A stretch of 64,000 nt of DNA from Micromonospora tarapacensis (GTDB lineage: Bacteria > Actinomycetota > Actinomycetes > Mycobacteriales > Micromonosporaceae). The position numbers and the translations under genes were made by a program. Positions 59,147 through 62,085 of this stretch are shown piece by piece. The notes beneath the pieces were generated by a model that was given only the letters and a program-made list of their open reading frames with translations, ran no database searches and was not told where the DNA came from. The stretch covers positions 124,001 through 188,000 of the forward strand of contig NZ_JAHCDI010000003.1 of NCBI RefSeq assembly GCF_019697375.1. Direction: 5' to 3'. The stretch's first letter is position 1. The number at the start of each line of letters is the position of its first letter.

Positions 59147-59356
59147 ATGCATGATCTCGTGGGCGCGGTCTGGCGGACCAGCAGCCGCTCGAACGACCAG
59201 GGCCTCTGTGTGGAGGTGGCCGACAATCTGGCCGGTGTCCACGGTGTGGTGGGCGTACGCGACTCGAAGGACCAGGCGGGGCCGGTGCTCGTGGTCAGCC
59301 CGCCGGGGTGGAGCGCGTTCGTCGACGCGATCCGGGCGGGACGGTTCACCGGCTGA
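59147..59356 (+). CDS. DUF397 small regulatory-type protein
   Basis: A 69-residue protein with the DUF397 pattern VWRTSSRSNDQGLCVEVAD, VVGVRDSKDQAGPVLVV and SPPGWSAFVDAIRAGRF. Such proteins in actinobacteria are usually paired with an XRE-type helix-turn-helix gene and linked to development. No such partner is adjacent here. ATG 59147 is preferred as GGGAG lies nine bases upstream. An in-frame ATG at 59138 is too close to it. Confidence 0.82.
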   Translation: MHDLVGAVWRTSSRSNDQGLCVEVADNLAGVHGVVGVRDSKDQAGPVLVVSPPGWSAFVDAIRAGRFTG

Positions 59357-59445
59357 CGCCCGAAGGGGTCTCCGGTGGCGGATTCTCCGGCCGGGGACCC
59401 CGAGCCGCGTGCACACCGCGTACCGTCGACGCCACGGGAGGTGGG

Positions 59446-59569
59446 ATGTCGACTGTTGCGGTCAACGGAGTGGTCGCGGCGACCGCGACCGACCTGTGGC
59501 GGGTGCTCACCGATCTGCCCCGGCGCGCGTCCGGCGGAGGTCCTGTCGAGGTGCTGACCCCCGGTGAGT
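59446..59569 (+). CDS. SRPBCC-family protein, exon 1 (interrupted by group II intron)
   Basis: First 41 codons plus one base of a START/SRPBCC-like protein: MSTVAVNGVVAATATDLWRV and on to VLTPGE. GGGAGG precedes ATG 59446. Read straight on, the frame ends early at TGA 59578-59580. If the intron 59570-61741 is removed, exon 1's last base (T) joins TC of exon 2 to give Phe. The reading then continues as LTPGEFGPGTSWRETR, the expected family sequence. Total spliced length is 468 bases, exactly 156 codons. The spliced protein would be 155 residues. Confidence 0.85.
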
Positions 59570-60158
59570 GTGCGCCGTGAGGCGCTGTTGGATTGTGTGG
59601 AGGTGAGAGACCTTCTCCGTCGGGCCGTCGCAGCGGTCTGGCGAAGCTGGGGGCAGCCTGATCCGGGAGGTGCCGGGGAGGGTGGCAAGCGGCCCTGACA
59701 ACGCCGGGGCGTGTCAGCACTGCCAGATGGTGCGGGTCCGGCTAGCGAATCGGAAAGGCATACGCGAGGAACCGGCGTTTACGTCTCCTAAGTGGTCACC
59801 GGCTCGAACCTGGCGGATCTGGGCCGGTCGCGGTGCGCACCTGCTCTTTCAGACGGGCGGGGAACTTCTGAGCGGGGATTTTCACCTCCGCAGGGAGGCC
59901 ATGGTGAAGGTCTGCGGCGTAGCCGTGGCGATGCCGCGGGGACAAAGTCGGGTGCCTCCTTCGATGAGCGATCCAGCAGTGAACACGGGAACCGTCCGGC
60001 GGCGGGTCCCGACGGCGGGCAGCCAGTCCGATGGTCGGGATAGGCACATCGTCTGCTGAACGCGTCGGGCGGGGCGGAGCCGTCGTAGTACTCCGAGGTC
60101 GGGAGAGCCGACCACATGGGGAAGGACGGCAGCGGTTTCGAGAAGGAAGGACGCTGTA
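59570..60158 (+). ncRNA. Group II intron domains I-III (5' ribozyme part)
   Basis: This 589-base stretch upstream of the maturase has no gene of its own, and short frames in it lack coding bias. It should fold into the large domain I scaffold and domains II-III. It starts GTGCGCCGTGAGG. AGGAAGG before 60159 is the ribosome-binding site of the maturase. Confidence 0.75.
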
Positions 60159-61628
60159 ATGCCGAAAGACGCGCCACTGAACGGCGGCGCTCCACCGGAA
60201 CACGTCCGTGAGGACGGGTTCGGGTGGGTATCGAGGATGCAGACCAAGCTTCACCGTTGGGCTGCGGCTGATCCTGGCCGCAGGTTCGACGACCTGTTCA
60301 ACCTCGTGCACGACCCGGCGACGCTGATCGTGGCGTTCGAGCGGGTCGCGGGCAATACCGGGGCGCGGACTGCCGGTTCGGACGGCCTCACGGTTGCCCG
60401 GATCGAACGGGAGATCGGCGTCCCGGCGTTCCTGGACGACATCAGGTCAGCGGTCAAGGACGGTTCTTTTCGTCCGCAGCCGGTGCGGGAACGCAAGATC
60501 CCCAAGCCGGGTGGGTCGGGCAAGGTCCGCAAGCTGGGCATCCCGACCGTTGCTGACCGGGTCGTGCAGGCCGCCCTGAAACTCGTCCTGGAACCCATCT
60601 TCGAGGCCGATTTCGAGCCGGTCTCGTTCGGGTTCCGGCCCAACCGGCGAGCACACGACGCGATCGCCGACATCCACCTGTTCGGCAGCCGAGGCTACCG
60701 CTGGGTGCTGGATGCCGACATCGAGGCGTGCTTCGACACGATTGATCACACGGCCCTGATGGACCGGGTGCGGCATCGGGTCAAGGACAAGCGTGTGCTC
60801 GCGCTGGTCAAAGCGTTCCTCAAGGCCGGGGTCCTCACGGAGCTCGGCGAGGAACGCGACACCCCGACCGGCACACCGCAAGGGGGCATCCTGTCACCGC
60901 TGCTGGCCAACATCGCGTTGAGTGTGCTCGATGAGCACCTGCACCGTGAGTGGAAGCCCGGCGGGCGGATGTCGACGGACAATCGGCGCCACTATCGACG
61001 TGATCGGGGGCAGGCGACGTGGCGACTGGTCCGCTACGCGGACGACTTCGTCGTCATGGTGTTCGGCACCCGAGATCACGTCGAGGCGCTGCGCGAGGAC
61101 GTCGCGGCCGTGCTCGCTCCGCTGGGACTGCGACTGTCGCCGTCCAAGACGCGGATCGTGAACATGGCCGACGGGTTCGATTTCTTGGGCTTCCGCATCC
61201 GGTGGAGACGCAAGATGGGCACCCGCGACCAGTGGCACGTCTACACGTTCATCGGTGACCGCCCAGTCCGGTCACTGAAGGACAAGATCCGTGCCCTGAC
61301 GCGCAGGTTGTCACAGCAAGACCTGGGAGAAACGCTGATCCGGATCAACCAGATCACGCGTGGCTGGGCCAACTACTTCCGACACGCCGTCGCCAAACAC
61401 ACCTTCGACCGGCTCGGCTACTTCATCTGGTGGCGAGTTGTTCGCTGGGTCAAGGCCAAACGACGCTGGAGATGGAAGGACGTCCACCGCTGGCTACGCA
61501 CCCCGACCGGGTGGCGGACCATCACGGCGGACGGGATCGAACTGCACAACATCGCGTCGACCGCCGTTACTCGGTATCGCCGTCGCAGCAGAATCCCTAC
61601 CCCCTGGGCAACAACGAACCAAGCCTGA
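60159..61628 (+). CDS. ltrA: Group II intron reverse transcriptase/maturase
   Basis: A 489-residue intron-encoded protein that helps splicing and copies the intron RNA into DNA. It has the RT block FEADFEPVSFGFRPNRRAHDAI, DIEACFDTIDHTAL, GTPQGGILSPLLANIAL, the catalytic YADD in RLVRYADDFVVM near residue 293, and LGFRIRW. The maturase (X) domain follows with GWANYFRHAVAKHTFDRLGYFIWWRVVRWVKAKRRW. There is no C-terminal zinc-finger HNH endonuclease, so it would need a nicked or single-stranded target. It lies within domain IV of the intron. Confidence 0.95.
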   Translation: MPKDAPLNGGAPPEHVREDGFGWVSRMQTKLHRWAAADPGRRFDDLFNLVHDPATLIVAFERVAGNTGARTAGSDGLTVARIEREIGVPAFLDDIRSAVKDGSFRPQPVRERKIPKPGGSGKVRKLGIPTVADRVVQAALKLVLEPIFEADFEPVSFGFRPNRRAHDAIADIHLFGSRGYRWVLDADIEACFDTIDHTALMDRVRHRVKDKRVLALVKAFLKAGVLTELGEERDTPTGTPQGGILSPLLANIALSVLDEHLHREWKPGGRMSTDNRRHYRRDRGQATWRLVRYADDFVVMVFGTRDHVEALREDVAAVLAPLGLRLSPSKTRIVNMADGFDFLGFRIRWRRKMGTRDQWHVYTFIGDRPVRSLKDKIRALTRRLSQQDLGETLIRINQITRGWANYFRHAVAKHTFDRLGYFIWWRVVRWVKAKRRWRWKDVHRWLRTPTGWRTITADGIELHNIASTAVTRYRRRSRIPTPWATTNQA

Positions 61629-61644
61629 CGGCAGAAACCGTGGA

Positions 61645-61678
61645 GAGCCCGTTGCGTTGAGAGGCGCACGGCGGGTTC
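61645..61678 (+). ncRNA. Group II intron domain V (catalytic hairpin)
   Basis: A 34-base hairpin opening GAGCCCGTTGCG and closing GCGCACGGCGGGTTC with a GAGA-like loop. It has the same length and layout as bacterial domain V consensus, including the catalytic AGC triad near its 5' side and the two-base bulge. It begins 17 bases after the maturase stop. Confidence 0.9.
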
Positions 61679-61681
61679 GGC

Positions 61682-61741
61682 GAGCGGTCCGCAGAAACGG
61701 GCCGGTGGCAACACCGGAACCGCGCTGCGGGCCGACTCGAC
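61682..61741 (+). ncRNA. Group II intron domain VI with branch-point A
   Basis: CGAG and CGGTCCGCAG pair with CTGCGGGCCG and CTCG around an inner stem CCGGTG-GCAA-CACCGG. The A at 61735, between the last two paired blocks, is unpaired and seven bases from the 3' end (61741), the usual place of the branch nucleotide. The 3' terminus is AC. Confidence 0.82.
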
Positions 61742-62085
61742 TCGGTCCGGGCACGTCCTGGCGGGAGACGCGGATCCGGCCGGACGGCGGCATGCGGGCT
61801 GAGGAGTTCGTGGTCCTGTCGGTCGAGCCGCCCCGGCGGCTGGTGCTCGGCTCGCCAGGTGACGGCGTCGACTACCGGATCATCTGGACGCTGCGCGACG
61901 TGCGCCGTCGACGGCGCCGGTATGCCGCGGTGACGGTGGCGGTGACGGCGCAGCCCGCCGCGCCGTCCGGACGGGCGGTCGCGTTGCTGCTCGGTGGGCT
62001 GGCCGCGCAGGCGGTGGAGAAGGTGCTGCGACAGGATCTCGCCGCGCTTGCCGCCGCCGTCGATCGGCCCGCCGAGGCGGCCTGA
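61742..62085 (+). CDS. SRPBCC-family protein, exon 2
   Basis: Continues exon 1 (59446-59569) after splicing, with codon phase restored by TC of the first codon. It reads GPGTSWRETRIRPDGG, MRAEEFVVLSVEPPRRLVLGS, YRIIWTLRDV and an amphipathic C-terminal helix to TGA 62083-62085. This matches the strand-helix plan of polyketide cyclase/START-like proteins, which bind hydrophobic ligands. Read without splicing, it has no proper start. Confidence 0.83.

Follow-up and report, generated by a model that had tools for sequence, protein, structure and literature searches.

The window analyzed here, a stretch of 64,000 nucleotides from Micromonospora tarapacensis (contig NZ_JAHCDI010000003.1, positions 124,001 to 188,000 of the forward strand), contains on its plus strand a gene for an SRPBCC protein that is split by a group II intron. 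The 5' exon (59446-59569; codons 1-41 plus the first base of codon 42) and the 3' exon (61742-62085, delimited by genome search and alignment to relatives) enclose an intron of 2172 nt (59570-61741, plus strand, GTGCG...CGAC). A small DUF397 gene (59147-59353) lies directly upstream of the split gene and adjoins it in 29 of 29 relatives examined. Joining the exons (124 + 344 nt) yields a frame of 468 nt that encodes 155 amino acids plus a stop, with a Phe codon formed at the junction from T and TC. The spliced product scored 32.9 bits against Polyketide_cyc2, an SRPBCC family in Pfam with a cut-off of 27.4. The original prediction, that excision of 59570-61741 creates an unbroken 156-codon frame reading as a normal family member, was thus borne out. 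In the unspliced message, the SRPBCC frame is closed by a TGA at 59578-59580 (plus strand; intron nucleotides 9-11), at the end of an ORF at 59308-59580, and the product would have 44 amino acids. Because of this stop, the full-length protein needs splicing.

The intron limits are based on a second copy in the same genome, located on contig C4, on the Rfam model RF00029, and on intron-less relatives. The second copy, which is in two pieces and differs by 1 base, matches the segment 59570-61741 exactly from its position 1 to 2172, and the flanks of the two copies differ on both sides. A start at the GTGAG six bases upstream (59564) was excluded, since the sister copy and the empty sites in relatives fix the start at 59570. 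There the intron begins with GTGCG, in keeping with the group II 5' consensus GUGYG. It ends with AC, the 3' consensus being given as AY in PMC4238363. RF00029 matched 61643-61741 with 44.3 bits (cut-off 40), and this was the sole above-threshold match of the model in the window. Its alignment together with the predicted fold placed domain V at 61643-61678 and the domain VI hairpin at 61681-61739, both on the plus strand. In the predicted fold of 61643-61741, A61735, the seventh base from the intron end, is the single bulge in domain VI, as had been anticipated; the fold had a z of -5.7, and none of 200 shuffles was as good.

The RT/maturase gene (60159-61628, plus strand) is open across 489 codons. 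Its 489-aa product exceeded the Pfam cut-offs for RVT_1 and GIIM, scored 369.6 bits against NCBIfam TIGR04416 (group II intron RT/maturase; cut-off 300), and is related in sequence to solved group II RTs. No HNH family was found in it by Pfam search at E values up to 1. According to PMC4424553, the endonuclease is missing from classes C to F and from a minority of class CL, and the HNH-free protein fits this group. With the GTGCG start, domain V, domain VI, and an intact RT/maturase all on the sense strand of the SRPBCC gene, as originally described, 59570-61741 is an intact and complete group II intron in its retroelement form.

The exon-binding sites were located by comparison with related introns. 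From 80 pairs of intron ends, 72 introns were kept after short 5' flanks and duplicates had been removed; where one start could be paired with either of two 3' ends, it entered the set a single time. Segments of 5 and 6 bases from the first 620 nt were slid against the 5' exon, and in the shuffled controls exons were swapped among introns, without correction for kinship. Two places in the intron paired well above the shuffles, one from position 311 onward with exon position -1 downward and one from position 224 onward with exon position -10 downward. The former contains EBS1 (59880-59886, plus strand; intron 311-317, TTTCACC), in which 6 of 7 bases pair with positions -1 to -7 of the 5' exon; its partner is GGTGAGT, with one G-U pair and with the -1 base of IBS1 unpaired. 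The latter contains EBS2 (59793-59798, plus strand; intron 224-229, TGGTCA), in which 5 of 6 bases pair with positions -10 to -15. Mean pairing, uncorrected for kinship, was 0.713 for EBS1 (72 introns; top of 200 shuffles 0.470) and 0.768 for EBS2 (71 introns; top of 200 shuffles 0.547). EBS3 is A376 of the intron (59945, plus strand); its partner is T61742, where the 3' exon begins. In the alignment of the first 620 nt, column 376 showed the strongest covariation with exon position +1 (82% paired, 0.45 above shuffles).

Taken together, EBS1, EBS2, and EBS3 gave the junction a pairing score of 11.5 out of 14, in agreement with the EBS1/IBS1 pairing that had been proposed as a check. With the true site counted, this score was reached at 5 of 123,612 positions on both strands of the intron-free window. 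On the spliced mRNA, the junction is the top EBS1 plus EBS2 site (10.5 versus 8.0 for the next). Use of EBS2-IBS2 separates IIB from IIC introns. The EBS3-IBS3 recognition of the 3' exon is common to both according to PMC4424553. Both contacts are present here, which corresponds to IIB-type exon recognition as judged by exon pairing alone.

The same comparison revealed variation at the intron ends. Eighteen of the 72 relatives start with U rather than G (e.g. L046, L050, L076, L091, and L156), and all 18 have G as the penultimate base (17 GC, 1 GT). Among the 54 G-starting introns, 45 end in AC, as do 8 of the other 9 if the end is shifted by one base. A contact between the first and the penultimate base is known (PMC3669008, PMC4238363), and the U start with penultimate G looks like a compensatory change of this contact. 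In a quick tree, the U-starting introns did not form one clade.

To describe where related introns sit, 69 with sufficient flank were sorted by a rough codon-position GC rule into sense, antisense, and neither; L046, L057, and L157 (3 of 72) had short flanks and were left out. By this rough rule 30 introns were in sense orientation, among them the window and C4 copies, 9 were antisense, and 30 were neither. One exon piece was scanned with Pfam for 28 of the 30 sense cases (two L064 introns share a piece, and the window gene was scanned separately). Nineteen of the 28 pieces had a match at E <= 0.01 and 9 had none. The recognized hosts comprised 16 transposase or integrase genes, of which 4 (L091, L129, one of two in L142, and L160) scored under the cut-off set by Pfam, 2 group II RT genes, and 1 gene with matches to helix-turn-helix families only (L144). 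Of the 9 antisense cases 2 were scanned, yielding a phage integrase (L102) and a below-cut-off transposase match (L053). Thus, 18 of 19 relatives with a recognized sense host sit in transposase/integrase or intron RT genes. Among the recognized hosts, no other than the window gene is clearly non-mobile; the 9 unmatched pieces could hide others. Introns of the same family were seen nested in group II intron RT genes in L064 (G113:C404) and L067 (G078:C33). The introns of L047 and L086 (window's genus; Micromonospora veneta) have nearly the same 5' flank and differing 3' flanks, a pattern that might be expected as at an integration site. Read on the other strand, this 5' flank resembles the 3' half of a tRNA; ARAGORN found no tRNA at either insertion site.

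The host gene was searched for in 200 genomes of the family at a threshold of E <= 1e-15. SRPBCC matches were obtained in 86 genomes: the window genome, 37 further members of its genus, and 48 genomes from other genera. Each of these 37 same-genus genomes had one uninterrupted match, free of stops and spanning the junction. None of the 20 listed non-matching genomes was from the same genus (94 further genomes were non-matching). In the window genome an intact second copy was not seen at E <= 1e-15, where just the two exon pieces matched (19 of 35 candidates scored). The best-scoring 29 loci apart from the window genome, all from the same genus, were then examined. The gene order FAH, DUF397, SRPBCC, PQQ is preserved in all 29, which excludes that the SRPBCC gene is spurious or mobile. 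The empty site was found in 29 of 29, as the proposed comparison with intron-less relatives had called for: the junction codon is TTC in 25 loci and CTC in 4, and a residue is aligned at that codon in every locus. At the DNA level, the six nearest relatives run through the junction without an indel. Because the 29 loci keep both the gene order and a TTC or CTC junction codon, the insertion is exact, and the SRPBCC gene is an old, syntenic one. Introns of the window intron's family occur in 41 of the 200 genomes (the window genome counted); 7 of the 37 other same-genus genomes are among the carriers, and the SRPBCC gene is uninterrupted in all 7.

The sister copy on C4 is identical to the window copy at 2171 of 2172 nt and has different flanks. 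Its RT gene is interrupted by a different group II intron, 1933 bp long. In the 5' exon of the sister copy, Pfam recognized Transposase_mut (Mutator family), and we take this host gene to be of the IS256 type. The frame downstream runs for just 42 codons, so that this transposase looks broken anyway. The transposase site also has a pairing score of 11.5. Two introns that are 91% identical, L081 (Paractinoplanes durhamensis) and L045 (another genome), share with the C4 copy the same 15 upstream bases, TGACGACCGGGGAGA, and their EBS1, EBS2, and EBS3 are those of the window copy; in both, the contig ends short of the 3' junction, and they are possibly one strain. A further relative, L109, has the 3' part only, and its downstream flank matches that of the C4 copy. 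The sole base difference between the window and C4 copies is at intron position 665 (60234, plus strand), where the window copy has A; G stands there in the C4 copy and in both L045 and L081. Since the two relatives share G with the C4 copy, the window copy has the newer base. The change places Arg instead of Gly at RT residue 26. Arg is found there in 20 of 83 scored alignments, the window's own counted, which excludes that the change is necessarily damaging.

These comparisons suggest a donor direction from the transposase site to the SRPBCC site, inferred from one substitution and outgroups that are maybe one strain, and the window copy is probably the result of an off-target jump from the transposase site. 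The insertion looks recent, or even very young, being 1 nt away from the sister copy and absent from the 37 other same-genus genomes found. Two nearly identical copies in one genome would also be expected if the assembly had misplaced the C4 copy into the window, and yet the copies differ by one base plus the 1933-bp insert, the two exons fit the syntenic gene without a base too many or too few, and the exon pairing with the intron would be a coincidence. Such an artefact is extremely improbable. No intron match at near identity was found in the phage collection, and the exact 33-base pattern had no match in viral contigs.

The 1933-bp intron was present in three identical copies, C4:5518032-5519964 (L009:6033-7965), C4:833287-835219, and C4:2652769-2654701, and a fourth copy of this type at 96% was seen in another genome (L172, 5' part only). 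Each copy follows the codons D/S-K-T-K/R-I-V of an RT gene (L172 by motif alone), as if this intron homed into the RT genes of other introns. Six more distant relatives with a readable 5' flank sit elsewhere, though one of them, L174, shares the last bases aagatcgtg. Similar habits are described for Thermosynechococcus elongatus in PMC2882425. The off-target jump into the SRPBCC gene may have come before or after the 1933-bp intron entered the C4 copy.

From these observations we infer the following course of events. The intron would normally reside at a conserved position within IS256-type transposase genes. From there the intron would have moved as spliced RNA, by pairing-guided reverse splicing, and inserted recently on the sense strand of the syntenic SRPBCC gene at a look-alike site. 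The precursor mRNA would still be spliced with the help of the maturase that the intron encodes, so that the 155-aa protein is made, and mRNA that stayed unspliced would give the 44-aa fragment only. As judged from the genomic comparisons, this reading, a transposase-homing intron that recently entered a look-alike SRPBCC site and is still removed from the mRNA, is very probably correct.

Since unspliced mRNA would yield only the 44-aa fragment, the amount of SRPBCC protein depends on splicing efficiency. RmInt1, residing in the ISRm2011-2 transposase gene of Sinorhizobium meliloti, is reported to splice <1% of exons correctly in vivo (PMC4238363), and spliced Ll.LtrB, in the ltrB relaxase gene of Lactococcus lactis, lowers host mRNA (PMC6003770). 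Functional SRPBCC mRNA could therefore be scarce, and, given the RmInt1 value, the gene may be nearly off. A practical knock-out, in which exons are joined poorly and the strain tolerates near absence of the SRPBCC protein, overlaps with the low-yield end of the preferred explanation. It is a serious possibility, if somewhat short of an even chance, and would agree with the youth of the insertion, with its absence from the 37 other same-genus genomes, and with the description of bacterial group II introns as virtually never in housekeeping genes (PMC3522654). Against it, the splicing parts are present, the junction pairs with the intron as well as the transposase site does, and movement of the intron needs spliced RNA; recent movement means that spliced RNA was made at some time.

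The stop at intron nucleotides 9-11 makes protein output dependent on splicing, and the original prediction had gone further by suggesting that splicing efficiency could act as a switch. In such a switch, splicing would vary with conditions and set the SRPBCC protein level. No sign of this was found. The intron is a recent arrival, and the 37 other same-genus genomes found lack it at this site; regulation of this kind is very unlikely. Of the original prediction, the intact, probably spliceable intron, the real host gene, and the need for splicing were supported, and the switch role was not. Because the two near-identical introns share one set of EBS sequences, RNA or maturase from the transposase copy could also act in trans on the SRPBCC message. 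Such action might aid splicing, re-insert into or cut the ligated exons, or join exons of the two genes; we regard it as unlikely, if less so than a switch. If it occurred, the fate of an ordinary chromosomal gene would be tied to that of a selfish element at a distant locus.

The preferred reading, a recent escape from a transposase site with splicing maintained, offers a very young case with a non-mobile host gene, for which the likely donor, the unoccupied sites of relatives, and the pairing with the target are all available. With these features combined, intron-less relatives can serve as the reference for measuring how efficiently an ordinary bacterial gene is spliced and at what cost, and the same comparison could show by what route an intron that homes to transposase genes reaches other chromosomal genes.

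In bacteria, housekeeping genes are said to harbor group II introns only seldom (PMC6003770); PMC4424553 likewise places most of these introns outside such genes and adds that some have settled there, and for Azotobacter a groEL gene with an intron close to its 3' end is described (PMC4465626). A search of the open literature for group II introns of Actinobacteria/Streptomyces or Micromonospora returned no related report. RmInt1 resembles the window intron's family in being mobile, in residing in a transposase gene whose protein, because of stops, can be made only after splicing, and in using EBS3-IBS3 (PMC4238363). Unlike RmInt1, the window copy moved out of the transposase gene into a non-mobile gene, and its 3' splice site does not have a run of four cytidines. 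The introns of T. elongatus also spread within a genome and have conserved sites in IS elements and introns, but they are said to spread mainly after EBS change (PMC2882425), whereas the window copy has kept its EBS1 to EBS3 and sits at a look-alike site. Ll.LtrB likewise interrupts a gene that depends on splicing; its host gene is on a conjugative plasmid (PMC6003770), whereas the present one is a syntenic chromosomal gene. In Trichodesmium, the twintron Tr.e.I7-Tr.e.I8 is located in a conserved protein gene, as is the window intron, and is described as transcribed and correctly spliced (PMC4649490). It is a nested pair in a cyanobacterium, whereas the window copy is single and its C4 sister nested. 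The recA intron of Geobacillus kaustophilus (Chee and Takami 2005, as cited in PMC4424553 and PMC3522654) also resides in a conserved chromosomal gene that needs splicing. That case concerns another organism and an essential host gene, and the intron is described as active with host survival reportedly unaltered (cited in PMC3522654), whereas the present case is read from DNA sequence. Introns in housekeeping genes are thus already known from recA; the intron described here is an endonuclease-free, EBS3-using one in another gene and another phylum.
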